Shown here: positions 10,192-43,730 of the stretch, piece by piece
How positions within the stretch are numbered: the stretch's first letter is position 1
Layout: every line of letters starts with the position of its first letter
Origin: Deuterostichococcus epilithicus
Lineage: Eukaryota > Chlorophyta > Trebouxiophyceae > Prasiolales > Stichococcaceae
Assembly (NCBI GenBank): GCA_033439295.1
Contig: JAVTLE010000003.1
Span: forward strand, 496,001-560,000
DNA length: 64,000 nt
Reading direction: 5' to 3'
Position numbers and translations under genes: made by a program
The notes under the pieces: model-generated
Database searches by the model: none
The model's input: the letters and a program-made list of their open reading frames with translations, nothing else
What the model was told of the DNA's origin: nothing

Positions 10192-13100
10192 ATGGAGGCG
10201 CAAGAGCCTGTCAAATTCTTGTATTCTGTTGCGGTGCCAGCCCTTGGGGAAGGCGCATTCTCGGCGCCTGATGATGCCGAACCCATCAGCATGCCCTTCA
10301 GGGCCTCAGCAGCAAGCCTTGATGACGCTGCGCAGGATGCCTTGGGGTCCGAGAGCCAGGTGAGCGGGATGCATGTCCTAGAAGCAGAACAACAGAACCA
10401 TTTGGAAGGAACTAAACGACGGAATATTGTTCTAGACGATCGAAGCACATCTGTGCATCGAGGCACGCCGTCCGCAAAGCACCGCGTATGTTGCGCAGGA
10501 CGGCACGCAGGAGCAGCGGCCGCCGCCAGGCGGGGAGCCGGATGACGAAAACTTAGACGGCTTTGGCGACTTCTTCTCCCTGGACGATGTGCCGCTGCCA
10601 GCGGCCAGCATGCCAGGCAGCTCGGTGACATCACCGCAGCACGGAGTTGCAGTGGTGGTCGCGGCGGCGGCGGAGGATGAGGAGGCGGAAGGGGATACCA
10701 CACCCGCAGGGCAGGGGCAGGACCGTCTGCCATGGACGCGTGCCTCGCGCCGCATCCGGAGCCCGCTCCTGCGCCTGCACAATGGTGAGAAGCATGGCTT
10801 TTACGTTATGAACGCCCTCTGCCAATGGGCATCTGGGGCGGGATCCGCAAAGGATGGACATGCAATGAGAGTTCATGCCATGCGCATCTGCAGCAATTTG
10901 GTGCCAATTGAGGCATCCTGCTTGTCATATGGGTTGTGTACTTGTCATGGACAGTGTCCCACGTTTCTTCACAACCTTGCAATCCTACAGGTCATGAGAG
11001 TTGAATGAGTGTTGCAACAGAGATCGCCGAGTTCTGCCGCTTCTTGGAGCCGACGGCAGAGGAGCGGGCGGCGCGAACTGCCGCTATGCAGCGCGTCTCA
11101 GACGTCGTCACCGCCATCTGGCCCACTGCCCAAGTGCAGGTGGGCCTCTCTCCGATCACACATTGCATCCCTGTTGCACGCTGGCAAACGCGTGTGGGGT
11201 TGCATCCCTCTTGCTTGGGTCCCAACAGTTGGCTGTCATCCATTTTGGATTGGCGCACCTGCTCTGGCTGTCCCTCAGGGTAGCGTGCCGGCTTCACTTG
11301 CAAGGGACCACACGAGTATGGCTTCCGAATGAGGCTTTCCCATCACAGCCTGTTGACCGACGGCCAGCGCTCGCCGGGAGCAGAGTCAGGAGGTCGCTGG
11401 GCTGGATGGCACGGATCCTGCATGCACCCTGGCGCCGCAGGTGTTCGGATCCTTCGCCATGCGATTGTACCCTATCCACCTTTCCTCCAGCAACACAGAC
11501 CTGGCAGTTGAGGAACATTCGTCTCGCCATGGTGCAACAAACCTCCCCCTGAACCTCCCTTGGACCCCTGTCGCCGCAGGTGTTCGGCTCCTTCGCCACG
11601 GGGCTGTACCTGCCCACCAGCGACATGGACCTGGTCGTCACCGAGTCGGGCTGCCTCGACGTGCGGTCCGGGCTGCGGGCGCTGGCGTCCGCGCTGTCGC
11701 GCAAGGGAATGGCCAAAAACATGCAGGTGGGCTGCCGGCATTGTTTCCAAACTTTAAACACACATCTTGTGTGTGTCGCCCCTTGGTCTTGGGCAGCATG
11801 CAGGCTGCACCGCCAGCGCCCTGCCTGTGCATCGGCCTTTTCAGGGACAACCATACGATGATAGAGAAAACCCTGAAATGAAAACCACATTGCGAAGGGG
11901 CTGTTTCAGGCGCCGCTGGCATGCATTCTACGGTGCAATGAGACACGCTGTCCCGTCATGCGAGTGGGGGCTCTTCAAGGCATGGCTAGATGGTCATCTC
12001 AAGGTTGGCACTAGTCACTGCCTCGGCCGCCTTCGCCCGCTCAAGATATTACCCATACAGTGTCTTGTAGATGCTATATGGATGTGGTCGTTATATGATG
12101 CCGGTTGAGGCGGGTAGCTCCCCACGGTTGCAACAGGATGTGTCTGCTTCTCTGTGCACCGTCCCTGCATCTGGTGCTCAGAATTCCAGCCCAGAATGCG
12201 GCCTGCAAGCTGTAAGGTCAAACTTCATGATGCAAGCACTCACCTGGCGACTAGGACTTCGCACACCACATGGCTAGATTGCTGCACACCTATACTCGTA
12301 AGGTCATCATCCCGCAGACAGTATGCCTGGCCGGCCTCAGGCATCTTGCCGCACCCAGTAGCTTATGACACGCGCCGCAGACGTTGCTTGGCTGGTTTGC
12401 TTGGCCCTGACGCCGGCTGGCCTGGTCTTCTCACGCCTTTCTGCGGCCCTGGATCCTCTTCTTCTGCGGAATGCGACATCAGGTCGAAACTTCATAACAC
12501 CCTGACGCAGGTGGTGGCCAAGGCCAAGGTGCCCATCATAAAGTTCGAGGAGGCGGCCTCGGGCTTCAACTTCGACATCTCCTTCGACGTTGCCAACGGC
12601 CCGGTGACCGCGGCGTACGTGCGCGAGCTCATGGCCAAGCTGCCGCCGATGCGCCCGCTGCTGTTCATCCTCAAGATCTTCCTGCAACAGCGCGAGATGA
12701 ACGAGGTGCCCGTCCATTCTGCAGTTCCATCATTCAGGCACCCCGGCTCGTGGTGGCCTCCCCACGGCGACGGGCCAGGCGCCGAGCCGCCACACCAGGT
12801 CGAAATGCGCCCTTGCGACTCAAGACTCGCATGGTTCACCGCCCTTCTGTCCGGACCTTAGACAATTTCGCCCTATCCACCTGAATCCTACCCCATGCGG
12901 CACCCCTGCGCAGGTGTATTCCGGCGGCATTGGAAGCTACGCGCTGCTGGTCATGGTGGCGGCATTCCTGCAGGCGCACCCGTCGCGAGCCCCGCTCAGC
13001 GCCCACAGCCGTGCGGCGGCGCCCCTGGAGCCCTCGCTCGGCGTCCTGCTCCTGGACTTCTTCCGGCTTTTTGGCCGCTCGCTGTTTGCTGACTACGTGG

Positions 13101-15879
13101 GCGTCTCCTGCCGGTGCGCGGCGCCTGGTGACAGAAAGGGCTCCCTGGAAGTTTCACCTAACCACTCACATTCGAGCCATGTGCAAGCAAGCGTCCTGCT
13201 CCTGGACCGTCTCTTGCTGTACGGCCGCTGCCTTCTCACCGAGTGTGCGGGCGACTCCTGCGGGTGCGGGGCTGACCTTGCAAGTCCGGTGCTTCAATGC
13301 CTGCTGATGTGCAGGGACATGACGATGCCAACCTGCCTCGACTGCTCTGCTTCTCTCTGCTCACATGATGCACATGTGTCGTGCACATCTGCGCTGCCAG
13401 TCGGCCTTGGCTCCGTCATGGCCGCCCAGAGTACTTTGGGGCGCTGCAAGCGGGGCCTGCGCGATGTCATAGCATGCATGCCTCCAGCACAACATGCATG
13501 CCTCCAATCCTGAAGCCAACGCCCCTTCCACGACCCAGACACACGTTGAGGTGCAGGCAGGGCGCGCCATGTCACAGCACGCGGTCGCAGGGGCACCGCC
13601 AGTACGAGCGCCTCACACTGTCTGCCGACTCTTGGGCTCCGTGACCCCCCATTGCAGCAAGGGCGCGGCGTTCTACGACAAGCGGTCGCGGGGGCACCAC
13701 CAGTACGAACGCCCCTTCATGCTGTCGGTGGAGGACCCCAACGACCCGGACAACGACCTGGCCAAGGGCTCCTTCAACGCGCCGCGCGTCCGCCAGGTGA
13801 GCCCGCAGGCAGCCCGCTGGCCAGCAGGCAACGGAGCCTCACTCCCACGCGCTGTGTGCATGCCCTGGCGCGGGCATGTGGAGTGCAGCCGGAGGCTCCT
13901 TCGACGCGCCGCGCGTCCGCCAGGTGAGCGCGCAATGGGTCGCGTGGCGCAACAGAGTGTGACGACAGAGGCCAGCTCACTTGCCTGCGGGTGCGCAGCA
14001 GCAGGTTCTGGGGTTTTGGGGCTGCTGTGAGACCAGCCCCACTCCAAGAGCACCTCCCACTCGCCGCGCATGCGCCTTGCGAGCGTGCACACTGGGTTGC
14101 GGCAGAGAGACCGGGGGCGCTTGCCGGCACGATCGCAGCCGGGTTTGGGAGCTTTGGAGCTTGGGATCGCTGCAGCCTGGTGCCACGCTGCAAGCACACG
14201 GGGCTGCGGTCAGGCTGTGGTGCATCAGCTAGGTCCCTACCGGCAAGGAGGTCACAGGAGCTGGTGAGCACAGACTGCAAACCCCACGCCTGGCTGGCCC
14301 CGCAGGCCTTCGAGTACGCGTACACGCAGCTGGCGCGCGGCGGCGCCCCGGGCGAGAGCCTCCTGGAGCGCGTCATCCGGCTGGACAGCGTGCTCGTGGA
14401 CCGGCCCCGCCCGGCGGCGCTGCCCGACTACGCTGACGCGCCGCCCGAGGTGCGCGTCAAATCTTTGAGCTTCCAAACCTTGAATTTCAAAGTCTACGGC
14501 CTGCTTGCGCTGCCCGACCACGTGGACGCACCTCCTGAGGTGAGCGAGATGCGTTTCTGGAGTTTTGTTACTTTCTTGGGCAATTCGGCTTGAAGCTGCG
14601 CTTTCAGTGCCGCGCCTCGGCAGCTGTCGAGCCTACATTCAGAGCCACGATTGAGGCCTGCCCCGTGCCCGGCTCGCTGCAAACACCTGTGTCTGGATTT
14701 AGAAAACTGGAATTCCTATGTTTTATAACAATAAAATAGCACCGTATCGCATCTGCAGAAATAAAATCAGTGTTGTAGTACGACTAAGCTTGGTGCAGAC
14801 CACAGAAAACGTCCTGTGCGGCCTCCGGGCTCCCAGCCTGCGGCCCTGACACCGACCTCTCGACAGTCCTGCGTCATGATACACGGGATGGAGCACTGCA
14901 CTGGACCCCTACACCCTAAACCCTGCGCAGGCAGTGGGCGCAGCCAGCGAGGTGGAGGCAAGCGAGGCGCGCTCCGACGGTTCCGACGGCGAGGCCCCGC
15001 CAGGGAGCTGGCAGGAGAGCGCGCGGCAGCGGCGGCGGCGGGAGGAGGCGGAGAAGAAGGCGGGACGGAAAAGCAAGAAGGAGCGCAAAAAGCGCAAGGT
15101 GGGCGAGCTAGAAGCGCTCTCTCTTGAGAGAGGTGGCAGAGTTCTCCCTTGAGCATTGCGTCAGGCTTGCACGCCAGGTGCTAGTACGGAGGGTTGCGCC
15201 GAAGTGTCAGGGACGATGAGCATCGCAAGCTGTTGCGCACTTGCACACAACCCAAGCATGCCACGACTCCTCTCGATCCACCCCAAACTGGAGCGGACGC
15301 GTCGCTTCTTGCCCAGCAGCGGGTGCGGGAGCGGGATATTGCTTTCGGCGCGACGCCGGAGGAGCCCAGCTCGGCGGGCGAAGACGACGAGGCGCCGCCA
15401 AAGAAGCAGCGCCGGCACGAGAAACATCATCACAGGTGTGGGGCCGCATGGCGCACTGGGTTGCTGTTCTGTTGCCGCCAGCACGACGCCCTGCAGTCTT
15501 TTGCGCTACTGTGCAGGTATGCGGTCATGGCAAGTGGTGACAAACATGCCGTGCTGGCGACCCAACCGCATGGCTGCTAGGCTTAGGCTTGTGTGCTGCA
15601 TCATGCAAGCAGCACTTCTGCTTTGGTCGACGGAGCATGCATCTCTGCTGCTGCAGCCATGGCAGCAGGCACAAAACTAGCCAAGCCCAGGACCAGCCGG
15701 CCGGCAGCCGAGCGCCGTACGCGATTGGCGGCAGCCGCTCGGCAGCTGGCAACGGCGGCGGCGGCGGCCACAAGCACCGGAGCCACGCGGCATCTGACGG
15801 CGGCCACAGCAGCCGCCGCCATGATCGCGGTGGCGGCGGTGGTGGCGGCGGAAGACACAAGCACATACGCTTTGACTGA
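10192..15879 (+). CDS. TRF4: TRF4/PAPD5-type non-canonical poly(A) polymerase
   Basis: A nuclear nucleotidyltransferase that would add short A tails to RNAs for exosome decay or trimming (TRAMP-like). Eleven exons join with matching phases: 10192-10359, 10499-10784, 11021-11139, 11580-11726, 12511-12705, 12914-13113, 13658-13796, 14306-14449, 14931-15098, 15320-15435 and 15657-15879, giving 634 residues. Residues 1-150 are acidic and disordered. The catalytic core has 'FGSFATGLYLPTSDMDLVV' (GS plus the DxD pair) and a third carboxylate in 'FNFDISFDV'. The central domain has 'VYSGGIGSYALLVMV' and 'LLLDFFRLFGRSLF', both typical of TRF4. 'HHQYERPFMLSVEDPNDPDND' contains the family's ED-P motif before 'VRQAFEYAYTQL'. 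The C-tail is Lys/Arg-rich (nuclear-localisation-like), then His/Gly-rich. Several introns carry decayed copies of exon edges. The ATG at 10192 gives the first exon; two to three upstream codons cannot be excluded. Confidence 0.92.
11431..11640 (+). repeat. Exon echo: copy of the exon-4 acceptor and 5' end (TRF4-like)
   Basis: 11431-11510 repeats the real junction at 11571-11640. Both read GCCGCAG followed by GTGTTCGG and CCTTCGCCA, then diverge with a small indel. The copy keeps the acceptor AG but loses the reading frame. Confidence 0.8.
13040..13275 (+). repeat. Exon echo: copy of the exon-6 3' end (TRF4-like)
   Basis: Intronic 13189-13275 is a diverged copy of 13040-13125, the exon-6 end and its donor. 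Shared blocks are GCGTCCTGCTCCTGGAC, GGCCGCT and GACTCCTGC/GTCTCCTGC followed by GGGTGCGGG/CGGTGCGCG. Offset is about 149 bases. Confidence 0.75.
13554..13725 (+). repeat. Exon echo: copy of the exon-7 5' end (TRF4-like)
   Basis: 13554-13623 repeats 13651-13725. Shared blocks are GCAGGCAGGGCGCG/GCAGCAAGGGCGCG, GCGGTCGC, GGGGCACC and CCAGTACGA. Offset is about 98 bases, with the acceptor region included. Confidence 0.75.
13767..13929 (+). repeat. Exon echo: near-identical duplicate of the exon-7 donor
   Basis: 36 bases at 13894-13929 match 13767-13802 with one mismatch (GAC for AAC). The match runs through CGCGTCCGCCAG and the donor GTGAGC. The intron therefore holds a second intact 5' splice site 127 bases downstream. 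Confidence 0.9.
14417..14545 (+). repeat. Exon echo: copy of the exon-8 donor (TRF4-like)
   Basis: 14507-14545 repeats 14417-14458: GCGCTGCCCGAC, then GACGC, CC and GAGGTG with substitutions at third positions. The copy ends in GAGGTGAGC, a stronger donor than the real GAGGTGCGC. Confidence 0.8.
14700..14770. other. AT-rich islet with two AATAAA boxes in an intron
   Basis: Inside the TRF4-like intron 14450-14930 the base composition drops sharply and two AATAAA motifs occur about 30 bases apart (near 14729 and 14759). It may be a small insertion; nothing coding is visible. Confidence 0.4.
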
Positions 15880-16417
15880 CTAATTTGGTGAAACCCAGAG
15901 GCAGCTGAATCGACCCCCGAGGCTTTCGCCAGGTGTCGAAGCCGGGCTGTGTTCGTCCTTGACCGACTTGACTGCTGTCTAGAATGATTGCTGCCTTTTG
16001 CTCTTCTGCGCGCTGTTGGTCTGTTTGGAAAAGGTGGCACCCGTCCTCAGCTGTGCCTGTCAGCGTTCGTTGCCATCCCTGTGCATTGTATAATGTCTGC
16101 ACGCCAGATCCAGCAGCTGGTGCCAGCTGCTGAATGACACTGTTGAAGTGCTGAGCTGGCGCGCAACGTGCTCATGTCAGATGCAATAATTTGCAATGCT
16201 GTGATATTCAGTGAACCCATAGCACCGTGAGATTCGTGATAACAAATTCGCCTTCTTTGCGCGCATCAACGTCCCGACAAAATTCGCGGAGTGCCAGAGC
16301 ATTCTAGTGTAGGGATTGAGAGTCACTCAGCTCCTGTGCCTCGCTGAACGAGCTTCGAGGCCGTTTCCTCGTCCTTCTGGATGTAACTCGGGATGTAATC
16401 CGGAGTGCGCAAGCGAG
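15880..16417. other. Spacer: TRF4-like 3' flank and ALKBH6 promoter
   Basis: Same-strand spacer of about 540 bases, less GC-rich than the exons. No ORF with supporting similarity was seen. Confidence 0.4.
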
Positions 16418-17904
16418 ATGGTGACGATCGATGTGAAAAAGTTGCTGCGGGATGATCGCCAGCGGCGCGCCTCGCCAAAAGCTCCCGTGCTGGAGCATGA
16501 AGCGGACGAGACCGGCGTGCTGGAGCAGTCGCTGGATCTTAATAAGCATACGGTGGGCAGGGACCACCTGCAGGCGAGTCGTGCGCCTGCTGCATACATC
16601 ACGTTGCGCTTGTATCGGTGATATGCGTACCGGAATAGCACTCGAGGAATGTCGAAGTTCTGGCACGGCGTCACGTGGTGCGTGTGATGGGTGGACAGGG
16701 TCTTTTTTTCATTCGAGACGCCCTGACGCGGCGGCAGGAGCGGGAGATACTGGACGGAATCGACTCAGCGCCGGCATCGCGGTACGGAACGCTGCAATGG
16801 TTTGATATACCATTCGGGCGGTTGCTGGCGAGTGGCTCTCCCTGCATGCTGGAGGACGGCGGTTTTTTCGGTCTGCTTTGCCGATGTGCAGTTGCTGTGC
16901 CTGCGACTGCAGGTGGGTGCAGGCTGAGGGGCGGCGGGTGCAGAACTGGGGTGGCAAGCCCGGCTCGGCCGCAGTTACAGAGGTGCTGGCGACTGACTTG
17001 CCAGCCCAGTCAAGACTCACCCCTGAATGTATGAGAAGCAAGATGGCAACCTCTCGCATGCATTCGTCAGCCTGCATGACTCATGCAGAAGAGGAACAAC
17101 CCTGGCCGTCCTCTGCATGGTGCAAGGTCATTCGAAGAAAGACTGTGTTGACAAACCACTTGCAGGAACTGCCGCTTTTCCTGTCGGCGCTGCTGGACCG
17201 ACTGGAGGCGGCCCGCGTGTTTGGCGCGGGCGAGCGGCCCAACCATTGCCTCATAAACAGCTATGAGCAAGGGGCACCTTGCCCAGTGCATCAGGACGGG
17301 CCGCTGTGTGAGCACCCCTCGCTGCTTCTCAAGCCCAGCATATAGCAATGATTTCCGGCACACGCCGCACTGGTTGGCTCAGACAGGATTTGTTTACGCG
17401 AACCTGAGCGTTTGGCTGCCGTTCGATTTAATCTGGCTTGCCCTCCGTTTGGGCTCCCGAGTGGATGTAATTGTGATGCTGCTGCTGCCGGCAGACCTGG
17501 ACAAGGTCATCACGGTCACGTTGGGCGGCCCTGCTGTCATCGGCTTCTACCGCAACCTGCCGGACGGGTCGGCGTCTCCTGACACTGTCACCGAGGTGAG
17601 CTGAGACGCATGACGGTGGAAGTGCCCCTCGAGCCCAGCTTCAGACACAGCCGGACTGCCGCAGGACTTCCAACAGCCCAGCGCCTGTCGCGTGCAGGTG
17701 CTGCTGCAGCCGCGATGCTGCTTCGTGGTGTCGGACGAGGCCTACTCGCGGCACCAGCACGGAATCGAGGCCAGGGAGGTTGACGAAATCAGTGGGCTGT
17801 GCTGCAACCGTGACGCCGCGGGGGTGGCAGTGGGGCAGCTTGTGCCGCGCGCAGCGCGGCGAGTGTCGTTGGTGTTTGTGCGAAAGATACAGAGGACAGA
17901 ATGA
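16418..17904 (+). CDS. ALKBH6: ALKBH6-type 2-oxoglutarate/Fe(II) dioxygenase
   Basis: An AlkB-family oxygenase predicted to use Fe(II), O2 and 2-oxoglutarate on nucleic acid; the ALKBH6 substrate is not settled. Six exons fit in phase: 16418-16552, 16699-16799, 16913-16982, 17166-17307, 17495-17595 and 17698-17904, giving 251 residues against about 240 for animal ALKBH6. Family motifs: 'FFIRDALTRRQEREIL', 'RRVQNWGG' (RLQNWGG in animals), 'PNHCLINSYEQG', the iron-binding H-x-D in 'PVHQDGPLY', 'ITVTLGGPAVIGFY', the distal His in 'RHQHGIEARE', and the terminal Arg strand 'RRVSLVFVRK' for 2-oxoglutarate. The junction of exons 1 and 2 is the least certain. An ATG-less extension upstream exists, so 16418 is the first ATG in frame. 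Confidence 0.88.
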
Positions 17905-18425
17905 TGGTGGCACGTTGGCGGCATGGGCAGCAGAGGCTATCAGCATGATGGAGCATGTCGCCATTTGCTTGGTGTCGCCACGGCGACACTGGACATTGTT
18001 CAATGTATTGCCGCCGTTTCAGCAAAGTTTTTGTTGCAGCGGGCTCTAAACTACTGAGGTCGATAGGGTTTAGCACTGGCAAACATGCATCGTTGCGAGC
18101 CGCCCTGCTTGCCAGCGTCCCTTTTCGTCAGCCGAGCAGTGGTCTCGGGCCGGAGGCGCCTCCAGCAACTGCAGGTGAGCGTCCATCTGCGCGCCCGGGT
18201 CGGCAGCGGCTCACAGCAGGGCTCTGTGCGGAGCCATCCGGTTGTAGAGCAGGCCTTGCAGAGTTATGCTACTGCACGGCCAGGCGGGCGCTGGAACGTG
18301 CGGCAATGCGGAGGCTACTGCTTGCACAGAGTTCGGACGGATCAGCGCTGGCGTGGCAAGCGAAGCCGGTCTCAGAGTGCAACTTGTGATTGTTTGCCTC
18401 GCGCAGGCAGCTCAGCTTTGCCGTC
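17905..18425. promoter_or_regulatory. Spacer and eL29 promoter / 5' UTR
   Basis: About 520 bases between the ALKBH6 stop and the eL29 ATG. A 5'-UTR intron may end at GCGCAG near 18407, but no donor can be fixed. No other gene seen. Confidence 0.4.
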
Positions 18426-18845
18426 ATGGCGAAGAGCAAGAACCACACGGCGCACAACCAGACGTACAAGGCGCACAGGCACAGCATCAAGAAGCCGAAG
18501 AAGACAAAATACGTTTCGCGCAAGGGGGTGAGCTTAGCGGTCGCACAGTTGTACGCAAAAGAGAAAATTACACCCTGCAACGTGCGCTGTGCCTATTCAA
18601 CCTGCAAACCCCTAACGCACTGCTGTGCCCGACATGCAGATGGACCCCAAGTTCCTCCGGAACCAGGTGAGCATTGGCACAACCCTTGCACATGTTGCGC
18701 CTGCAACTGCGGCGAGCCCCTGCTGCTTTCACCGAGGTTGCAATGCATCCTGTACCACTGACCTTCCACTTGTCGCTGACCTTCTCCTCCCTCTCGCTGA
18801 ACGCAGCGGTACGCCAAGAAGCACAATGACGCCGTCAAGGAATAA
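18426..18845 (+). CDS. RPL29: 60S ribosomal protein eL29
   Basis: A small basic protein of the large cytosolic ribosomal subunit. Three exons, all phase 0: 18426-18527, 18640-18666 (a 27-nt micro-exon) and 18807-18845. The product is 55 residues. It opens with the near-invariant 'MAKSKNHTAHNQTYKAHRH', continues with 'IKKPKKTKYVSRKG', then 'MDPKFLRNQ' and 'RYAKKHNDAVKE'. This matches eL29 (L29e) closely from end to end, and the length is normal for short plant and fungal forms. The middle exon begins with ATG, but this is an internal Met. Confidence 0.97.
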
Positions 18846-19451
18846 GTGCTGCCTGGGGTGGCGGGATACGCTTGGCAGCGGAGTGACAGGCATGCAGCTG
18901 GCGGCATGTTGCGGCGAGAGCAGCAGAGCCTGGAGCTGCGGGAGTGGAACCGGCAGGAGAGCTTGCTTCAGTCTCACACACCTGCCAGTGGCCTGCTGCT
19001 CGGCCCGCGGCTGTGGCGATGACTTGCGCGGGCTGCACGGGCAGATATGGCATGATGCTCGTACTGCATGGGGCTGTTTCTGGTTGCTCTTGCAGTCGTA
19101 TGGGTAAACCTCTGTTCAAAGTCATTGTTCCAATGGGTGACGCGCGGGAGTGCAACCTCCATCTCCTTCCCTACAGTTGCAGCCATAGTCTAAAACTCCA
19201 GATGCTGGCGATGCTGTCTCACCCAGCTCCAAGCGGAAGGCCAAGTGCATCCCTGATGCAGGTGTCGTCCTGCTGCCTGCCGCGCACGTGCATCTTTGCC
19301 AGCAAAGAGGACGAACAAAAGGAAATTGATGTGTGATCAAATTCCACCGCTTTTACAGCAAAAGCAGGCCTGCATGGTTTGCAAGCCAGCATTTATCAGT
19401 GCAGCGGACCAGGCGCAATCACCCTACCCAGCTTTCGTGCGCGAATGTTTA
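18846..19451. other. Tail-to-tail spacer, eL29 / PH-domain gene
   Basis: About 600 bases of convergent 3' flank. No TGTAA signal was found near the eL29 stop and no supported gene was seen. Confidence 0.4.
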
Positions 19452-22400
19452 CTATGTGATTGGCTGCCAATCCTGCATGCGAAGCGCCAGACGCTGCGTT
19501 GAATCAGGCGCCTGCCGCATCGCCTGCTGCTCCGCTTCAAGTGGAGGCTCTTGCCGCGGCGCCCCCATTCCCCGTTCTCCTGCAGCTCCCGGCTGCTCGC
19601 CTGCGCCCCAGCTGCCCGGCAGGATGGCGTCTGTTTTCGAGTCAACTTCCGCTGTTGCCGACGATGTTCCAGACGGCTGCGGCAGGCTGTCCGCTCCAAT
19701 CAACGCATTGCTGCAGGCTGTCACCGACGAGCGGCCGTCGGCCGCCAGCAGGGTCGTGAATGCCTGCGTCGAGGTGGCGGTGGGCAGCGCCCAGCACTGC
19801 ATGGCGTCAGGCGGGCCGGCGTCCATTGGCGGGGAATCGGATGACGAGAAGGAGCCTGCACCCTGCACGCCAACACAAGCTTTGCTGTTGGCAAGCTTAC
19901 ATATGCCGTCTTCAACTCGTATGCCAGTCACAGTCAGTTGTGCACATGCGAGTCAGGCATGGTCGAGGCGAGCAGGCATGTACGAGTAGTCAAGCAGACC
20001 TCGGGACATAAGCACGGCCCCAGTCGAGGCGACAACTCACCATCTGCAGCGGCCGGAAGGCGGTAATCACGCGGCTGAGCGTGCGGCTTATGCGGCCCGC
20101 CTTGCCGTAGTCTGCCAGCTTGCGCTCTACTGGCGACATCGCCGCGGCCGACAGCGCCGCGATCCATGCCCCCTGCAGTGTTCAAAACCCAAGTACTAGT
20201 CCTGAATGACATCCGGCGGAATCAGCTGACCTGCAAAGCGTGCAACGAGGCAACACTCCTATGTGGCACCTGCGACTCGGCGGTTTTGGCGCTGAAGACG
20301 TACGTTTTGGGCAGCGGTGATGCCACGGTCAGTGCGAACGGGTTGCGCCAGGCGTCTCTGGCTCTCGACACACCCCGCGCCTCCACCTGCGCCCCTGCCA
20401 GCGGCAGGGTTTTGACTGCCATGGCGCCGCGGCTCTTGCAAATGTTCAAAGCGCCACCCTGCAGGTGACAAGGAATAAATTGGGTATTCCCTCAAGTACG
20501 TAGCTTGACGTGTGAGCCTGCTGCTGCGTCTTCGGGCTGCACACCTTGATCAGAGCATGCCGCTTGTTCCACCGCCTCGGGCCAAGCCGTGACACTGCAC
20601 GGACGACACCGGTGTGTGTGAGGAAACCTGATGGGATCCCAATGAGATGAATGTGCGAGCTCCCTAGTCTGGGTTTTGTGCAGCGCCGTCTGCAGCAGGT
20701 GCTGCGCAGACGTCGGAGTTGGCCGACCTCGGAGTTGCTCAAGCTCGTCGTCCATCCTTATGCCGTCAGCTCCCGGCATACTGCTTTTAAAATCCTTAAA
20801 AACTATCGGAGGACCCAACACCTCGCGACACGCGTCTTGCGACACCTGCACCTCGTGTCGCGACCCGGGAGTAGCGAGTCGCGTCCAGTCAAGACCGGCG
20901 ACAGCTGACCCCCAGAAACGCTGAACTTCGGAATCGCGAGATTCACACTTATTTCAGCAAGGTCGTGGAGCGGCAAATTTGATACAGCCGGCCAGGTCCA
21001 CTCTACAGAAGTCCAAAGGCCTAGGAGCTGACTATGAGCTGGCAGTGCTACCTGTCAAACGGAAAACATGAAGGAAATTGCATAAGAGCTTCAGAGCTCA
21101 GTCATTGGAGCTTCTAAAAGCTTGTCAAGGCTTTGTTTGGCGCACGAGCAGACGGCTCTGTTGCCTGAGCGACCGATGTACACGGCGACCTGGCCGCCCA
21201 AGCAGAACCGCCTGGCTGCTGTGCCGATGCTGAATAGCATTGCAGACGCAGCAATTCCAGCCGTACATGAAACGTTCCGACCCAAAAGTCTTCGCTCACC
21301 TCGTCCGCGTCAGCGGCTGAGGCTGCGGCGCAGCCCCGGAAGGAAGCGCCTCACACAGGAAAGGGCCAGTAGTTGCTGCCCCTCACACCCGCGCCGCTAG
21401 AAGCTGCCCGCTCTCAGTCCTGCGCTGCCAGCAGCTGCACGGCGGCGATGGCGCCGTTGTCCAGGTGCGGCACCAGCCGCCACAGCGTGGCAAAAGTTTC
21501 CAGCTCCTCAGGCGGCGTCTCCAGGCCCACCGCGCCGTCCACTAGCCGCTGCATCACGACATTCGAAAAGGTTGTCGGACGAAGTGATCCGTCCTGAGCG
21601 ACGTGCACGAGCCGCCACGATGCATCGCAGGCCCAGATCCTCAGGCGGCGGCTCCAGGCACGCCGCGCCGTCCACCACGAACGCGGCTTTAATGTGTGAA
21701 GTGATCAGCCGGCAAGTCGAACAAGTTAACACAGGTGCGCCGCTGTGCTTGCAGCGCCGTCTCTGAGAGCGTTCAGCGCTGCTGGCACCGTCCATTGGTG
21801 CTTATGGTGCATGGTTTGGGATGTGCGAGCACCCATGTGCGCCGCCCTGCTGCACGGGCACAACTGCCACGGGGACGCGCTGTGTCTGCAGCATGCACAG
21901 CATTTCGGGCGGTCGCACCATCATCCGGTGCTCCTGCTCAATGGCGTCCACGATGCTGGCGACCAGCAGAGCCGTGTCCTGCCCTTCGGCAGCGCCGCCC
22001 GGCAGCCCCGACTCCCTCATCCCTGCCGGCATGTGGTCAGGCAGTGAGAAATGCAAGCGAAAGGCGTCAGCGACCCGTCGCCCAGCCTGCGCAACACAGC
22101 GCGTGCAGCATGGCCGGTCCTGTGCATGCAGTAGTGATGAGGCCGCATGATGCTTCAATGCTGCAACGTCGCGCCGCCTTGTGGGATCGTGGCTCACGGC
22201 GATCGCAGGCCAATGGTCAGCAAGCTCCGGGTATGGCTCACCTTGGGAAGGCTCTGCGTTGGGCTCCGCAGCAAGGGACGTGAGAGCAGCCTGCACCGCA
22301 GAGTCTCGGTGTTTGTCAGGTGTTGGTCACGGTGTCGCGGCACTGCCTTCTGCATCATTCAAGGGCAAGCAAGCAGACAAACACACAGAGCAGGAACATG

Positions 22401-23749: not shown

Positions 23750-26700
23750 CGCGAGCAGGTCATCGGATGCCACTCGCCGCACCCCCAGCACCGGCAAGGA
23801 TGCCGTGGCCCCTGGCGACGGCGGCCCCAGCGGCAACGTCGGCGAGCTGGGCGAGCTGTTCCGAGACGAGGACATCGCGCAGCTGGCGTCCAACTTCCCG
23901 CTGCCCGGCGGCGCGGAAGCAGGAAGCCCGGGCGCGGGCGGCGGCAGCGGCAGCGGCGCGCTGCCGGGCCGCCGCGGTGGCGAGACGGTGCTGAGTGAGG
24001 AGGAGCTGCTGGCGCAGCGCGGGGAGGCGCTGTCGCAGCTGCATGACATCTACAAGGTGCGGCAGCGAGCAACCCTTTCACGGCCACTGCCGCAGCAGAG
24101 CAGGTTGCCAGATGCAGAGCAGTCGCGGCACCTTCGCCTTTCTGTGCAATGCAGGACGTCATCGAGCACACATACTCTCTCGAGGCGTGTTCCACAACCT
24201 GGGCTGGGCATCGATCTCTGAGCTCAGAGACTTGCAAACATAGGCGCCTGGTCCCAAAGTTTGTGCCGCGTGCTATCACGCAGGAAGAGTACTGGGCGCT
24301 GGCGGAGGAGCTGCGGACGCGGCACCAGCAGTTTTGCGCCGCGGGCGGCACCGCCCTCAAGACGCCAGGTCAGGCCTAGACAATCGGAACCTCTATTTGC
24401 CAGCTGGCAGTCGCGATGCTGCAGCCCCCTGGCATTGGCACACAGCGGCTTCACGGGCCGCAGGCTCCGCACGCTGCTGACCGTAGCCACTCCCGGCAAG
24501 GCAGCTTACGTGGCACCGGGGCCGACCAGCAGTGATGCGACCCGGGAAGACTAGCAGGGCCAGCGACCCTCGCTGGAGCGGCTCGCTGGCTCCAAACCCC
24601 AATTGCTTTGCAGATGCTGCTGTGCTGGCAGCAGGTCCAACGGAGGTGGCAGCGGACTCCGACGAGGAGCTCAGCGTGCGCCGGCTGTACCGGCAGCTGC
24701 ACCCTGTGGCCTCGCGGTCGGAGGGCGCAGCGGCCGGCGGCGGCGGCGGCGGCGGCCCAGCGGCATCCGCCACGGCGGTGGGCCGGCAAAGGGCGAGCGG
24801 CGGTGTCGGGCGGGAAGGTTCGCGCAGCGAGGCCAGCGATCAGGTTGGGGCCCTGGCCCCCACCCCGCGCCCTGTCACTGTCCCCCCCCAACTGCTTGCG
24901 CCGAGGCAGCAGGCTCCTGGCCTCCGGCAGGCCATGGCACTGAGCAATGCGCCCTGCCGGCCCGATGGCCTGACAGGCCGGAGCAGCCGCCGCTCGGCCG
25001 CACCACCAGAAACAGTCGACACCTGGCCGCGGAGTCGCTGGCAGGGCTCGGATGGTTGTCCTGAACCTGCTTCTTGACGCAATGCCCGGGAGCCCGAGCT
25101 CCCTTCCGACCTCGGTCACTGTGCTGCTGCGCAGGAGTGCCCGGCGGAGTCGCACGCGGAGTCGGCCGTCCTGCGGCGGGCAGGACGCCTGGTCAGACCC
25201 TACTTCTTCTTGAAGGGCGCCAAGTCGTTTCTCGAAGGGTGCCAAACCTTGGGTCGGTGCTGCTGCGCAGGAATGCCCGCCGCAGTCGGATGTGGAGGAG
25301 GTGGTGCTGCGGCAGGACGCCTACGGCCCGGCACGCGACACCGCCGCGCTGCTGCGGGGGTATGGCAGCTTCCGCTCGCGCCTGCAGCTCGTAGGTGCGG
25401 ACAGAGCGGATGCAGCAGGCATGGCAGCATGAGCACGGGCACCAGCAGCGGGGGTCGCTTGGCTGGCGCTTGTGACCTGGCGCGTGGACATGGTTTCAAA
25501 GAGGGGTTCCAGGCGCTGCCAGCCGGCCCCTTCTGCGCAGCGCCCTGGCATTTTGCAAGGCTGGCTTGCAGCGTGGACTGCTTCGTCACCGTCCCGACCC
25601 ACGTCTTGCAGGGCGGCTGGAGGAGTGCGCGGCGGCGGCGGACGGGCGGGAGATGGACGGCAGCAGCGCGCTCGCCAAGCTGGTCGGCACACGCCTGCAG
25701 TTTCTGATCCACCGCACCACCGTCGTGCTGGGGCGCGCCACCTCCGCAGCCCCCGGGGTATGTCCTCTCGATTGATTGTTTTCCAAGTAATCCAGGCAGT
25801 TGACCCCCAATGAGTCATCACAAAGATACAGATGTACCTGGAGAGATTGCCAGGCCCTTCACTGCCGGCGCATTGCAGCAAGCCTGAGACCCTGCACCCT
25901 GAACCCTGCATGGCTCGAACCTGGCCTTCCGAAACGCTGCAGCGGGGGCACGTCGACATGGCGGCACAGGACGACATTGCGAGGCGCTTGGCTCTCTAGC
26001 TCTAGCTGAAAACAGCCGTCTCCACACCTGCTGCTCCGAAATGCATCAGGCAGACGTGGACAAGGCAGCGCAGGGGCGCCGGCAGGGCTCGAGACGTCTG
26101 CTACATTCAACGCTGGGCTTTGCCAACCGATCCTGCCAGCAGGCTGGCCCGGCAGCGGACACCGTTGTTATAGGATCTAGGTCTCACTGCCGCAGCAGGA
26201 GGACAGCATGACCGAATCCTGCGGTCTGCAACCCCGCAGCAGGTGGACGTGGACCTGGCCGCGGAGGGCGATGCGCGCAAGGTGTCACGCCGCGCCGCGA
26301 GCATCACGCTGCACCGCGACGGCAGCTTCCGCCTGCGCTGCGTCGGCCGTCGCTCGGTGCGGAGCTTTCGCTCCATCTCATGTGCCGAGGGCCCCTGGAG
26401 GGCCCGTGCCTCCGCAGGGCCGCTGCTGCGCGCAAGTGCGCTGCGTAAAGAGGGCCGCACACGGAGCGCGCCGGCGTCCCTCGCTCCGCGCAGGTCGACG
26501 CCAAGTCGTCTCGGGACAGCTTGGGCCTGTGCGGTGTGTGCGAAAACGTCACGAGCGTGCATCCACTGCTGGCCGGTGCCGCACACGAAATCCGTCTGGA
26601 GGCTGGCGCCGCACTGGGGCTTCCACAAGCGGTCCTCCCGCAATTCCCAGCCCTGAGCCCCTGCTTGACAAGGACGCCCGCCGCAGGCAGCCTGCTCAAG

Positions 26701-31500: not shown

Positions 31501-32531
31501 CAGCCGCCCCGCCTCCCCTCCGTCGGATGACGAGATGGGGGACGGCCACGATACAGGCGAGGACCGCCGGCCGTCCCCGCAGCAGTACCTACGGCAGCAG
31601 CAGGCGCAGGCGCACCAGCATTTGCAGCTGCAACTCCAGCAGCATGAACGGCAGCAGCGGGAGCAGCATCATGACCAGCAGCAGCAGCAGCAGCAGCAGC
31701 AGGACCCGGTGGCAGTGGCGGTGCACTTCAGCCAGGCCTTCGCCGCGCTGCAGCATAACCAGCGTGCCGGCCAGGCGTTTGTGGAGCCAAGTACGGCGCT
31801 GCGGCTGGCGGCGGCGGAGGCTGTGCGAGCCCAGACAGCTGCCGTCATCCATGCGGCAACCGATCTGGCTACCCAGGTGTGTGCCCCCAGTACTTATCTG
31901 CGATCGCCTGCTGGTGTTAGCGATCGCAGAGTCTTTTGTGCGGCACACTTGCACTGCAGTTGTACAAGTTTCAGCGTTGCTCAGTTGCCGAATCTGGGCA
32001 CCAGTGTGCCTCGAGTCATGCGAACCCTGTGTTTTGGCAGGCGCGCACGCAAGCGGCTGTGGCTGTTGCGGTGTCGGGCGACGTGCAGCAGGCCATGGAG
32101 TGGGAGGCGGCGCAGCAGCAGTTGCCGCCGCCGCCGCTCACGCCCGCACTGGTGCAGCAGTGGCGGTGCGCCTCATTCCTTTCAAACCCCTTTGGCACCC
32201 TGATCGACACCCCCTTGCAGCTGGGCTGCATGCATGGCCGGCCGCATTGTCGCTGTCGAACAATCGCCTGCAGGGTTGAATCAATTCTCAAGGCCACATG
32301 GACAGTTGGCCTTCCAGGCAGCCCGCTATTTATGGCAAGCTGACGCCCCCACCCGTGTGCATACGCCGCAGAGTGCTGCTGGAGAGCCACCCGGCGATGT
32401 TGCAGGTGCTGGCCATCTTGTCGCCCAACATGCTGTCCAGCGTCGGGCGTGTGGCGGAGCCGCCGCCGCCGCAGGCGCAGCAGCTGCCGGCCTTCCCCTT
32501 CCCGCCGCCGCCGCAGGCACCCCGCTCGTGA
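28547..32531 (+). CDS. Protein with two zinc-ribbon/treble-clef motifs and polyQ, unknown role
   Basis: Six exons fit in phase: 28547-29575, 30163-30261, 30512-30670, 30950-31876, 32041-32165 and 32372-32531, giving about 832 residues. Residues 1-343 are disordered and rich in Ser, Ala, Pro and Gln. Two related Cys motifs follow: 'CPRCREVKSVSEFHRKYADD' ending in CRKC, and 'CPHCGEVKRAALYYPN' ending in CRSC. Each is CxxC-x(n)-K-x(4)-F/Y-x(n)-CxxC, the pattern seen in HNH/endonuclease-VII-like treble clefs, but the catalytic His residues of HNH nucleases are not evident. After that come Gly/Arg-rich and Gln-rich segments with a CAG run near 31677-31701, then a helical 'LLESHPAMLQVLAILSPNML'. Two motifs in tandem suggest DNA or RNA binding, by inference only. 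Bases 31433 and 31438 are N. Confidence 0.75.
31676..31702 (+). repeat. CAG microsatellite encoding polyQ
   Basis: Nine CAG triplets in frame within the zinc-ribbon gene, inside a longer Gln/His-rich segment. Confidence 0.9.
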
Positions 32532-33824
32532 GGGCGCCGCCAGCAACTCGCCAGGCCTACCGCAGCGGCCCGGCAGGGGCCGGCGCTGCCTGTGACTGAT
32601 GAGGCCGCCACTGGGCCATGCTGGCGACCCACTCTGGGCTGCCGCTTGTTCTGGCCATGCCCCTGCACGTCAGAAGCTCGCACACAGTGGTGCAGCGCGC
32701 GGCAGGGAACTGCGGCCCCAGGCCGCTGCCTTGCCGCAGCGGCCGCGCTGCCCCTGACCTTAGATCCGTCCTGGAGAGGACCGTAACCGAGCCTAGATCA
32801 TACTTTGGGGTTCCAAGTGCACACGCTTTTGTAGTTCAGCGTGACTCGCAGCAAAGGTGCGAGAAGGCACTATCTAGGGCAGATACGTGTTTTCTGGGTC
32901 ATGCACACTCAGCATTATGCATACTTGTTAGATGCAGAGAACTAGACTGCCGACAGGGCGTAGGATGAATGTACTCGATTCCATTTTATGGCGAGGGTTC
33001 GTAAGGCACCGGGTCACTGGAGGCACGCCAGTGCCCATAGGGCGATTTGACGTTTTGCTAAGGGTTTGGGAGCCGTCTGGCCACCACTGTTCAGGCCGAG
33101 GGTGGTGTGGCGTAGTGCCACAAAGGCAGGCCCCTGCTCGCTTGTACCTATGCTGCTTGGGTTGTGTGGCGTATGGCTGTGCCGCCGTCACAACAATCTG
33201 ACTTTGTCTGGCGGCTTGAACGATACACTGCTCCAAGCCTGCCGATACTCGGCGGCGGGCCATGCGGTTTGCATGGTGTACATATCAGCTCCAAGATTGT
33301 CAAGGCGAGCAGCATTTTAATGTCTGTAAACCTGTATGGTATTTGGTGGGCGGAGCTGTACTTAGAGCCGTAAATGACAATCAGGGTGTGCATCGGAAGG
33401 TGGACGCTGCTGGCTGTCATTCACCTTCATGTGGCTGAGTTGGCATTACCCTCACGACTGACCAGGTACAAGACACTTGGCAGAAAGGCGCCGCAATCAC
33501 CTACCGGTTTTGTCTGTTCTAGTGAGAGCGTACGACTGCGTTATAAGCGACAGCCTCTCGATGGCTGTCGGACATGCAGCCGTTGTGTCGATATTGATAT
33601 TGTGAAAGGCTCCAAAACAAGGCGCTTGAAGGATCCACTTGCCGCACGTCCAAACACCGAAGCTCGTTCTTGTACACCTGTGCAACTCTGGATTCTCATT
33701 CCCATCGCATGCCCTGTCCGAAACGCCTGCGGCACGAGGCGAGCGATTTGTTGGCAATCTCGCCACCTGCAGAGATTCACTTATTGTTTCGGCAAGAGCC
33801 TCTTGCACGTGCGCATCGGCTCAG
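32532..33824. other. Spacer of 1.3 kb, 3' flank and IPC synthase promoter
   Basis: Less GC-rich than the genes. A TGTAA signal at 33325-33329 could end a long 3' UTR. No gene seen. Confidence 0.4.
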
Positions 33825-36800
33825 ATGGGATCCTCCTCGACGAGAGAAACGGTTTGTGAGCGGCTCGTAGAGGAATTCAAAGTCGAGGCGAGCGCATGCC
33901 ATGTGCTAGGTCACCTTCAGTTGCAGAATACGCTAATTGATGTCTGCTTTGTGCAGCAATCTATCGGGAATTGCGTGTGCTACTTGTTTCAGATGTTCTG
34001 CATGACCACTGCATTACGTTTCGATATCACATAACTACGCCCATGTGCTGCAGTGCGGTCTGCTCAAGAGCAAAGGGTGGATCCTCATCCTGGGAGCGCT
34101 GTTCCAGTACGTTCATGGCGCCTTCACCGCAGTAGGTGCAGATGGTTCTGCAGCCAGCATGTTGCTCGTCTCTGAGCTTCCGGCGCCTGTGGCGTACGAT
34201 GATGACTTGCGTTATGTACCGCAGCCTACCACATGCATGAGCCGCAGGAGAGGCCTCTCAAGGACCTCGGATTCATGATACTGCCGGTGAGTGATCCTCT
34301 TACAGTTGACGGTCCACACCCGCCGATCGCACATGCGTAGCCACTGCTTGGAAAGCTGGGCCATGCATGAGCACATCCCAAATACATGCCCACCGCCCGC
34401 AACAATGCGCCTGCATGCAGGAGCTCGGCGAGCGTTACGACTGGATCAGCGAGTCGCTGTTCTGGACGCTCTTCGTCTCTTTCCTGGTGTTTGCATTCAC
34501 GCCCTTCATCCGGCGGCGGCCCAAGTTCTTCACCGTCGTGCTGTTCAGCCGCTTCCTCAGTATACTGTGCAGTGTGTCGCTCTTTCTCCCGTGCATTCTC
34601 TTCAGCTCCTGACCACGCGTTGATGGTGCATGTTTGCTGACAGGGTAGCTGAAACCTGCAGTGTCTAGCGCCCATGCTTCCAGTGTGCATAAGCGGCATA
34701 GCAGGCCGGCTGGCTATGGGACCCGCAGAAGCGGGCCCGCTAGGCCACATCCCATGCATGCCAATGATGTTTCCGCTGCAGCGTGCCAGGCGCTCCGGAT
34801 AGTGTCCTTCCTGAGCACCGGGCTGCCGGGGCCCGCGTACCACTGCCGCCTGGGCAAAGCCACCGCGCATCTGGCCTGGCCGCAGCACTGGTGGCAAAAC
34901 ATCTTCTTTGACATCAGCACACAGGTGGGTTAGAGCCTGGCGAGACTAGCCAGCACCATTGCTTGGAGAGCAGACGCACCTCGTGCATGCATGCATGCAT
35001 CATTTCCAGCGTCGCATCAGTGCAGCTTGTCTGCTGCCTGATGTCTGACGACATGCTGGCATCCGCTTGGTGCAGGCAGCACACTCTTGTGGTGACCTGC
35101 TCTTCAGCTCCCACACCACGTTCATTCTCACAGGTATCTGAGGCTGCCTTTTTCCTTATGCGTGCCAACCCCTTGGAATCTCATATATGCTAGAGGCACT
35201 GATGCAGCAGGTGGACTTGCTTCAACTAAAACTGGTCATCTGCGATTGCAATAGGCGCCTACACATACACAGTGTACGGCAGCCACAGGGCGATCAAGGC
35301 CGTGGTCTGGCTGGCAGTCATGTGCATCTGCTGCCTCATTATCGCCTCGCGGAAGCACTACACAGGTGGGAACGGAATCGCTTGCCCAGGGTCTGCTGTG
35401 CCTGCGTCTTCACGCCTTTCTTCGTGTCTGATTTGCCTGCAACCAGCACACAATCAGCTGGTTGCTGACAAAAGCCAATGTGTGCGTGCAGTGGACGTGG
35501 TGGTTGCCTGGTGAGCTTTCCGGCCATGACCCACTGTGCATGACCCACTGTATGCGATTGCCAAGACGTACAGAAGCACTTTTGCAGCATGATCGCATGG
35601 CTGGCCAAAGGGATCTCACACAAACGCACCGGCGCAGGTATGTCGTGCCACTTGTGTTCTTCACCTGGAAGCGCTTCTGGACGACGCACCGCACTGAGGA
35701 GGTGCAGCTACCCGACTGGGAGCCCATCAATGGTGCGGACTTCAATAGAGCCTGCGACACTGGCGAGCTGCGCTTGGACACTCTGAAGCCATCCTGCATT
35801 GCAGTTGGCAATTGCCGCCCCCTCATCACGTGCTTTAATCGATCGTGCACATGCATGCACTGTGCTGCTCCCAGCCTAAGACGGTCAGGTACTAGCCTGC
35901 TGCTGGAGCAGGTGGCATTCCCAAAGGTGACTCGTCCGACGATGAGCTGTCGGACATCGTCGTGACCAGCGGCAATGGCAAGCACGGCGTCGAGATGACG
36001 CCCTCGGTGCGAATCGGCTCTGGCAGAGTGCTTTGCTGCCCGACGAGTCATCTGGCTGCAAAGCGCGGTATAGCTTGCCCGAGGACCCAGATTGCTGCAA
36101 GCCGCAGTGTAACTGCCTGCAGGCCGCAATACAGCCATGCATGTGAAGTCCCGGACCATTTCACCTTTCAGCAATGCACACTGGCTTTTTGCTCTTTGCA
36201 TGTCCATTTGTACAGTCGCCTGACCCTCAATCATCGAACAGAATGTTTAAGAACGTACGTATCGTACGCTTGGCCCCAGTACTGTAGGGGTCGAAAGCGC
36301 ATGCCAAAGTGCTGGGCCAGGCGTACGATACGTACGTTTAGGAACGTTCAATTCAGTGATTCAGAGCTATGCCACTGCACAAATGGACATGCAAATAGCA
36401 ATAAGCAGCAGGGAGACCCTTGAGCATGTCCCAGTCGACAACGAATTCCAGAGCATGTTCCCTTGCTGCACAGGTGCCGCCAGAGCTGCAACAGGCGCTG
36501 AAGCATGGGGCGTCCCAGAGTCAGTTTTCAACCGACGATTCCGAGGCATCTGTGCTCCTCTATGGCAAGTGCCTGCAAACATCGACTCTGGTCCTCAAAG
36601 ATGGCAAGCACGTGCGCGTGCGAGCTGAGCTCCTCTGAGCAGCTTGGCATTCAACCATGTCAGCTCGACAAGCTGAAAACACTCTGCGGCCTACTTCGGA
36701 ATCTTAATCTGCATCATGTGCTGCCTGCAGGCCACGGTAATGGCAGCTCGGCAGCGGGCTACAAACAAAACAAACAACAGCAGAGGCGCAGCGGTGGCAA

Positions 36801-37413
36801 CAGCCACACCGCAGGCAGCAGCACCGACGGCAGACTGTCTGGCGCCCATGGCGGTGGCCCTGGCCCCAGTGACGGCGCCGCGGCGCGGCTGTGCAAATTC
36901 ATCTCGTCGCCGCCGCCAGAGCGCGCAGACGTGGTAACGGTTGCCGTGGTCCTTCAGACTCCCGTGGTCCCTTTCGTAAAGCCAATGCCTGTCATGCGGC
37001 CTGCCAAACAAAGTTTTGCTTCCAAGCCTGCTCCTGTGACACCCGCCTGCTTGCTGCTTGTGAGCAGGTGTCTGAGGGCACCTCGACCAGCGTGCTGCCG
37101 AGGGGCAGTGCCATGACCAATCGCGGGCAGGGGCCGTCTTCCACAGGTCGGTCCAGGCTCACTTTTTCTGTTCGCTCTCGGCCTACGATGTCCCTCGATG
37201 TCCCTTGATGGGAATGCAAGCACACACGTCAGACTCACTTGGGACGCCTCAAAATGTCCGCGATGTTTGGAGACAGTGCGGTTCCACAGCTGTGCCAATG
37301 CTTGCGCAGGCCAAGCGAGCAGACGCTACAGCTCGCAGCCCGATGAGTTTGTGTACCCCGTGCACGACGAGGACGCCACCGCAAACAACATGGCGAATGT
37401 GCCGCTGGAGTAA
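33825..37413 (+). CDS. IPCS: Inositolphosphorylceramide synthase (plant-type IPCS)
   Basis: An integral Golgi-type enzyme that transfers phosphoinositol from phosphatidylinositol to ceramide, making sphingolipid heads. Exons from 34054 onward join in phase: 34054-34135, 34225-34286, 34421-34559, 34782-34924, 35076-35133, 35255-35365, 35492-35510 (19 nt) and 35638-35732. Motifs follow the Arabidopsis enzyme: 'GLLKSKGWILILGALFQYVH', 'CQALRIVSFLSTGLPGPAYH', 'CGDLLFSSHTTFILT' with the catalytic His, and 'IASRKHYT' plus 'VDVVVAWY' with the second His and the Asp (PAP2-C fold). Several hydrophobic helices are evident. The first exon starts at 33825 (MGSSSTRETV); its donor is unclear, possibly GC at 33888. 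A cytosolic tail follows: acidic 'DSSDDELSDIVV' near 35930, then Gln/Ser-rich sequence, ending at TAA 37411-37413. The tail exons after 35732 are less secure. Confidence 0.88.
36189..36401. repeat. Long inverted repeat (foldback/MITE-like hairpin)
   Basis: Arms 36189-36283 and 36308-36401 are imperfect reverse complements, with a 24-base loop. Perfect blocks include ACGTACGTATCGTACGC on the left against GCGTACGATACGTACGT on the right, and TTTGCATGTCCATTTGT against ACAAATGGACATGCAAA with one change at an edge. The element lies in non-coding sequence of the IPC synthase gene tail. I see no clear target-site duplication. Confidence 0.88.
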
Positions 37414-37981
37414 GGCCTGATGACACGGCGATGACCCTACCAGCAGCCCGCTTATGCCATGAACCTGGCCCACTTGACATGAGACGCGGCTGTGGGGCAG
37501 GAGCCAACATGGCTGGACATCGCTGCACCTTAACATAGAATGCAGATATAATATTGATGCGATTGCTGCAGGCTCTAGATATTTAGTGCTTAAGTCTCAA
37601 GTTTTGTCTGTCACCGTTAGCGGCATTGAGATGCCACGTGCTTGCTCTTGTGTAGAGTACCTTGCGTCTTTCGTGCGGGATCTACTTGCCTTGACCGACC
37701 TCAATTCCCCACTTCTTCAAGCAAATGTACACTTGTTGACCAATGAGCGACTCTTGATTCGACACCCTCCCACCAATAAATGCACCGGCAACAGGGACTC
37801 ACGGTCTGAGTTAGTCCCGGCGGCTGGGTGTTTCGACAGCCATCACTTCCGCAATCCGCCGGAAGATATGTCCTTTTCGAGCGGTGCCGCAGGACGATTG
37901 AACTTGTGATATCGAACTTTGTCTGCAACAGCTCTTCCCCCTGCTAGTGCCAGTGGCATACTGGTGCTGGAGGCGAGCGCG
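37414..37981. promoter_or_regulatory. Spacer and DAHP synthase promoter region
   Basis: About 570 bases between the IPC synthase stop and the DAHP synthase ATG on the same strand. Relatively AT-rich around 37530-37620. No named element identified. Confidence 0.4.

Positions 37982-43730
<5,749 letters not shown>

Follow-up and report, generated by a model that had tools for sequence, protein, structure and literature searches.

The window, that is, the whole stretch of 64,000 nt analysed here (contig positions 496,001-560,000), comes from the 46.8 Mb genome of Deuterostichococcus epilithicus, which is assembled in 21 contigs. It is intron-rich and has a GC content of ~63%. Pfam families were matched by a TRF4/Cid1-type poly(A) polymerase, a class-II DAHP synthase and CofD; the PH-like and MCRS1-like gene models matched no Pfam family. 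Single N bases are dotted through the assembly, and 12 of them fall in the window, for example near 41702 and 41715.

Introns of these genes hold copies of the start or the end of the neighbouring exon, which we call echoes (Table 1). A preliminary description of the window had reported such copies, and an unguided blastn comparison recovered the ones that it had named, and between 11.4 and 42.1 kb the count came to 15 copies, spread over 10 introns, once small exons predicted on some of the echoes were set aside. Four other pairs in the same range (23792, 29263, 30542 and 32364) were left uncounted, and the same blastn list also contains a weaker exon-start candidate at 26043/26236 (79% over 33 bp, score 19). 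The frame status originally assigned to two of the DAHP synthase copies was borne out, the one at 40174 being broken by its two gaps and the one at 39365 being free of gaps. The copy suspected in the CofD gene fared less well: the pair was recovered, but it sits inside the predicted exon rather than at its start.

Table 1 Echoes, their partner exon edges and the DAHP synthase gene, in positions of the window
Feature	Position	Strand	Partner	Identity/length	Offset (bp)	Remarks
TRF4-like exon start echo	11427..11471	+	11566-11610	87%/45 bp	139	exon begins 11580; 3' splice motif included
TRF4-like exon end echo	13191..13272	+	13041-13122	72%/82 bp	150	
Next TRF4-like exon start echo	13552..13612	+	13653-13713	79%/61 bp	101	
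Near-identical echo, exon end and donor	13894..13934	+	13767-13807	95%/41 bp	127	intron flank unalignable, p=0.59
Second, older echo of the 13767-13807 exon end	14044..14089	+	13762-13807	74%/46 bp	282	
Exon end and donor echo	14507..14546	+	14417-14456	82.5%/40 bp	90	
Exon start echo, minus-strand gene	21633..21675	-	21500-21542	91%/43 bp	133	gapped 79%/71 bp
MCRS1-like exon start echo	25121..25180	+	25257-25316	80%/60 bp	136	flank p=0.11
DAHP synthase exon start echo	39365..39437	+	39482-39554	77%/73 bp	117	ungapped
DAHP synthase exon start echo, frame-broken	40174..40231	+	40295-40354	80%	121	two 1-base gaps
DAHP synthase exon end echo	40919..40972	+	40840-40893	72%/54 bp	79	
Second echo of the DAHP exon end 40840-40893	41031..41061	+	40846-40876	84%/31 bp	185	
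DAHP synthase exon start echo	41805..41853	+	42075-42123	84%/49 bp	270	
Short echo of the DAHP exon start at 42075	41909..41934	+	42073-42098	88%/26 bp	164	
Echo of the DAHP exon start at 42075	41984..42033	+		86%/50 bp	90	3' splice motif included
Possible CofD echo	63308..63338	+	63413-63443	87%/31 bp	105	29 bp inside predicted exon start
Class-II DAHP synthase gene, echo-bearing introns	38892..43397	+				PF01474 6.9e-192 for the join lacking echo-derived stretches

Sampled loci and gene models

For comparison we sampled 21 nuclear loci of 10 kb each (210 kb), which are named here by L-numbers (L010, L025 and so on). A simple gene finder was trained on the TRF4-like and DAHP synthase exons and then self-retrained on 295 kb; its predictions, made from sequence only, have GT-AG introns with a median length of 242 bp and exons of around 116 bp. 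Because some echoes were themselves predicted as exons, they are absent from the resulting intron list, and nine such pairs were handled apart. The locus L030 lies on a contig of 97 kb (C20) with ~30% GC in the stretch read, as against 58-66% for nuclear DNA, and this contig is probably organellar.

Echoes across the sampled genome

The preliminary description had proposed a controlled alignment of introns to their flanking exons as a check on its claim. We aligned 536 predicted introns to their own flanking exons and used as controls the same exons reverse-complemented and the exons of other genes. At a score of at least 18, a flanking exon was matched by 41 of the 536 introns (16 upstream and 28 downstream matches), compared with 5 for the reverse complements (2 + 3) and ~1.2 per round for the exons of other genes (0.6 + 0.6). 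Raising the score to 25 left 18 matches and none in the controls; lowering it to 14 gave 95 matches (35 + 60) against 46 for the reverse complements (16 + 30), so that the excess persisted although the controls were no longer small. The excess over the controls is real, and it confirms that copies of exon edges exist in these introns and that they also occur outside the window.

In 35 of the 44 alignments the copy began no more than 14 bp from the exon edge, as would be expected if the duplicated unit spans the border. In a stricter set of 35 (edge distance of at most 20 bp, offset of 60-200 bp), the offset averaged 121 bp with an SD of 23, and 32 of the 35 offsets were within 80-150 bp. The introns that carry echoes are also longer than the rest, as had been surmised, with medians of 440 bp (n=35) and 235 bp (n=501), respectively (p ~2e-11); longer introns offer more room for a chance match, an effect that is bounded by the controls. 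Grouped by predicted gene, 19 of the 35 echo introns fall in 4 of 70 genes (p 0.0002), and this clustering counts against a uniform process; grouping by locus gave no significant clustering (p 0.20). Finally, among 21 cases the spacer between an echo and the working 3' splice site always measured at least 45 bp, as though a branch point and tract must be retained, whereas the spacers on the donor side (14 cases) go lower.

Orientation and spacing of repeat pairs

The window was also compared with itself by blastn, a comparison in which no gene models were used and pairs were kept at a score of at least 20 and an offset of 50-200 bp. It returned 20 direct and no inverted pairs. Over the same range of offsets, the 21 sampled loci (210 kb) gave 35 direct pairs, some of which are coding repeats (L018, L020, L021), and again no inverted ones. 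At offsets of 2-10 kb the density did not exceed 0.43 pairs per 100 bp of offset in either orientation; the excess of direct pairs was at its maximum at 75-150 bp and had mostly gone past 500 bp. A predicted splice site was spanned by 34 of 72 pairs, in a list that holds coding repeats; shifted controls gave 24.1 (p 0.0045). Only two of the 72 were intron-only or intergenic pairs at an offset of 75-150 bp, both within the L025 arrays described below.

That the echoes are a product of chance, low-complexity sequence or assembly error is hardly credible. Some of the listed pairs are indeed coding or low-complexity repeats (L018, L020, L021 8003), but the reverse-complement and other-gene controls were near zero at scores of at least 20, the pairs at 50-200 bp did not include a single inverted one, and the many substitutions and frameshifts held by the copies are unlike a mis-join.

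Two other kinds of repeat were seen in passing. Short tandem duplications with offsets of 51-65 bp and 84-96% identity, a size class unlike that of the echoes, lie in predicted non-coding DNA at 54430-54536 and 48041-48154 of the window and at L016 1299-1401 and L027 2576-2685. An imperfect inverted repeat of 224 bp (36184-36406, 74%) lies within the predicted intron 36007-36473 and could form a long hairpin.

Decay, reading frame and splice motifs

Mismatches between copy and exon amounted to 0.19, 0.21 and 0.26 at the first, second and third codon positions over 44 alignments (0.18, 0.22 and 0.28 in the stricter set). Among the 35 copies of that set, the frame was broken by 26 of the 27 gap events, and 16 copies had at least one such gap. 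On both counts the copies look like non-coding relics and not like coding exons under constraint. Near-identical copies are scarce: identity of at least 90% over at least 40 bp was reached by one of the 35, plus two that had been predicted as exons (13894 and L025 4813).

The copies had been said usually to include the splice site, which holds in part. Of the 21 acceptor-side echoes, 14 have an AG no more than 3 bp from their edge; since this is expected by chance at 34% of random intron positions, some of those AGs were not inherited. On the donor side, 12 of 14 have a GT equally close to the edge. The mean acceptor score of the 14 edges with AG was 3.1, between the 5.6 of real sites and the -0.2 of random AGs, and the 12 donor edges similarly averaged 2.5, between 5.1 for real sites and -0.2 for random ones.

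Scores intermediate between real and random sites would suit the retention of echoes, ongoing or only lately ended, as alternative or poison exons, in which the exon part is conserved above its flanks. The L025 pair 4813/4946 could be read in the same way, as its exon part is 92% identical and its five differences are all synonymous by eye. Nonetheless, we consider such retention quite unlikely. Divergence was nearly equal at the first two codon positions and only slightly lower there than at the third, and the frame-breaking gaps speak against a coding role as well. Nor did the codon pattern differ between copies with and without splice dinucleotides: a hand count had pointed to a surplus of third-position changes in splice-retaining echoes, but the scripted test did not back it (p=0.27). 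Moreover, the DAHP synthase protein is collinear with its family once the echo-derived stretches are omitted, residues 7-421 corresponding to profile positions 22-438 (415 vs 417) in a PF01474 scan that covered only the join lacking those stretches.

Full-unit tandem copies

Clear copies of a full unit were found at L010 7118-7345, where 108 of the 120-bp unit is repeated, and at L025 4530-5006 and 1925-2561. The spacers are repeated in the L025 arrays as well as the exon edges. One predicted gene at this locus, whose exons by eye resemble a putative DNA cytosine methyltransferase, carries three multi-copy exon-start arrays (360-840, 1880-2560 and 4500-5010), and two successive units of ~261 bp are ~70% alike. 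In the window, the DAHP synthase intron before 42080 holds three copies; their spacers share short runs by eye, and a formal test was negative. Since full-unit duplications do occur in this genome, we retain local duplication of the tandem type as the base process. A tandem unit was found for the L010 and L025 pairs, and so the group as a whole is not classed as border-spanning tandem duplication.

The missing intron half

Recurrent local tandem duplication across exon-intron borders had been put forward as the simple account of the echoes. A tandem unit of ~120 bp that spans a border is half intron, so that both intron halves should be alike. Homology of the intron halves was found at p < 0.05 in only 1 of 33 pairs (local test; two of 35 were dropped for short spacers or flanks), in a set that omits echoes predicted as exons and is partly non-independent, one L025 echo having been entered twice, against both its exons. 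Among the nine further pairs that were predicted as exons it was found in three (L025 4823/4956, L025 2267/2505 and L010).

By comparison, when neutral tandem duplication was simulated at the identity and length of the pairs from the intron list, the flank stayed recognisable in 18-23 of 35 cases, or in 16-21 of 32 over five indel regimes. Simulations with uniform ages gave recognition in 63-85% of detected cases, at a mean mismatch of 0.09-0.16 as against ~0.22 observed. We therefore reject neutral tandem duplication at a steady rate, which predicts recognition of around half to two-thirds of flanks when matched and of 63-85% under uniform ages. A burst of uniformly old duplications would leave fewer recognisable flanks, but its copies would be less alike too, with an identity of 0.73-0.75 at K 0.4-0.5 as against the 0.79 observed.

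Measured against real introns, flank similarity had a mean z of -0.38 (same position) or 0.58 (random intron segments) over 34 pairs. A shuffled-sequence control had given a false flank signal (mean z 1.7), which was gone with real introns as the control. The similarity runs a median of 6 bp into the intron (34 pairs). In-register identity of the flanks on the acceptor side was 0.35 at 5-10 bp, compared with 0.27 in the control and 0.47-0.60 in tandem simulations; on the donor side it was 0.33 at 7-12 bp and 0.38 at 13-20 bp, with control values of 0.25 in both cases. An intron half so rarely recognisable relative to the simulations means that the exon half was either preferentially kept or preferentially copied. 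Plain tandem duplication across the border is thus not supported as stated: the copies are local, direct and anchored at the edge, they lie in longer introns and they extend beyond the window, but the intron half that the account demands is mostly missing.

A possible, if doubtful, alternative is that copying was limited to the exon edge, so that the edge and a few splice-site bases entered the nearby intron without their flank, for instance by capture or template switching during break repair, perhaps aided by the splice motif itself or by exon-specific chromatin or RNA. The abrupt end of similarity near the exon edge agrees with such copying, as do the flank identities below those of the tandem simulations at 5-10 bp and the 95% copy at 13894, which lacks an alignable flank. 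Yet a few pairs clearly contain the flank (L010, L025), and the donor-side identity at 13-20 bp exceeds its control. Random local capture would moreover be expected to take in the interior of exons and to yield inverted copies as well; most copies here start at an edge, and none of the pairs at 50-200 bp is inverted. We know of no repair process that respects splice sites. It is unlikely, in our judgement, that introns of this lineage grow by a copying that observes boundaries and repeatedly places exon edges and splice sites, free of flank, ~120 bp into the introns of certain genes.

That flanks are missing and that near-identical copies are scarce would both be accounted for if duplication had taken place between diverged homologous chromosomes of a hybrid or outbred diploid, with one haplotype contributing the left copy and the other the right, since the introns would then have been mismatched from the start. 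The L025 pair 4813/4946 fits this scheme. The third-position excess is small, however (0.26 vs 0.20), and haplotypes so similar at silent sites should not have introns that are unalignable, which makes such an origin very unlikely.

Searches for another source

A search of the genome's own DNA with the DAHP synthase echo region showed no second copy, and thus no paralogous source, among the matches listed; for the L025 region, the matches listed were the local repeat and a weak one at a second locus (78% over 69 bp, contig C12). Neither flank of the 95% echo at 13894 had another match in the genome among those listed. Spacers with a better-than-control partner nearby numbered 4 of 33, three of them in the L025 gene, and the other 29 had none; together with the unmatched flanks at 13894, this rules against a filler or mobile spacer. 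An mRNA template was rejected on the comparison of each echo flank with the exon across the intron, in which 34 cases gave no match (mean z 0.16). Matches between different introns of the 536 came to nine rows, or five pairs, of which three were within one locus and two were of 26 and 35 bp. An introner element was therefore rejected too, there being no intron family common to unrelated genes among these introns.

Discussion

The nearest precedent is the RdRp gene of potato (PMC4974935), where the last part of one intron and the first part of the exon after it were duplicated in tandem; the 3' splice site in use is that of the second copy, and some of the first exon copy has turned into intron. 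As in D. epilithicus, the duplicated stretch crosses an intron-exon border. The potato gene is a single case of recent date; duplication of its intron half is plain, and the outcome was a new intron. Here, dozens of old copies lie in introns that already existed, and for most of these copies no intron half can be recognised. Tandem duplication of exon segments that contain AGGT counts in one review as a way of gaining introns that has been demonstrated (PMC3443670, which cites Gao and Lynch 2009 and Hellsten 2011). In both settings the arrangement of exons and introns is shaped by local tandem duplication, but under the AGGT model exon sequence gives rise to a new intron and in D. epilithicus existing introns lengthen.

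In vertebrates, repair-mediated duplication by proximal capture gives short linked copies, some with parts of exons or splice sites, and 'doublets' are mentioned; two duplicated exons were free of coding constraint (PMC2671141). In that study, pairs within 50 bp were excluded, mean separation was 1.2 kb, one exon copy was inverted and partial exon/intron donors made up 4 of 824. The copies here are by contrast direct, ~120 bp away and mostly from exon edges. They do not have the pattern of proximal repair duplication, in which either orientation and any donor would be seen, as no pair at 50-200 bp was inverted and 35 of 44 alignments were anchored at the edge. Fill-in at breaks with 3' overhangs produces small tandem duplications (PMC8355091) and would be a plausible origin of short direct duplications such as these, but the abstract describes no link to exon edges, and full units would be expected. 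Introners resemble the present case in that many introns of one genome are changed (PMC9860276), and differ from it in that no intron family is common to genes among the 536 introns studied here. Among the open-access titles listed, a scope mostly outside subscription journals, many copies of exon edges in the introns of one genome were not described.

For copies that are local, direct and edge-anchored, that decay as relics do, that lie in longer introns and that cluster in a few genes, the best explanation in our view is recurrent local duplication in direct orientation with survivors that splicing tolerates, although we give it only about an even chance of being right. Short stretches straddling a border would be duplicated locally, in direct orientation and in units of ~80-150 bp, and we infer as their source the repair of breaks or nicks, or else replication slippage. 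A duplication within an exon would harm the protein and be lost. One that crosses the border could survive, with one copy remaining as the exon edge and the spare joining the intron, which would grow as a result; the survivorship step, too, is one that we infer. The spare copy would then decay free of coding constraint, and its weakening splice motif would linger for a time. Recurrent duplication with splice-tolerant survivors leaves one anomaly unaccounted for, namely that the intron half vanishes faster than neutral decay predicts. The small number of near-identical copies and the rarity of intron-only pairs count against it as well.

The way in which introns lengthen and the origin of spare splice sites are long-standing questions. 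The mismatch between the survival of the exon half and that of the intron half adds a concrete puzzle to them. In D. epilithicus, by our own gene models, the exon piece once received can still be made out in approximately one of every 13 to 15 introns (41/536 by score, 35/536 with the limits on edge distance and offset). With exon pieces visible in so many introns, the growth of introns becomes datable and testable.
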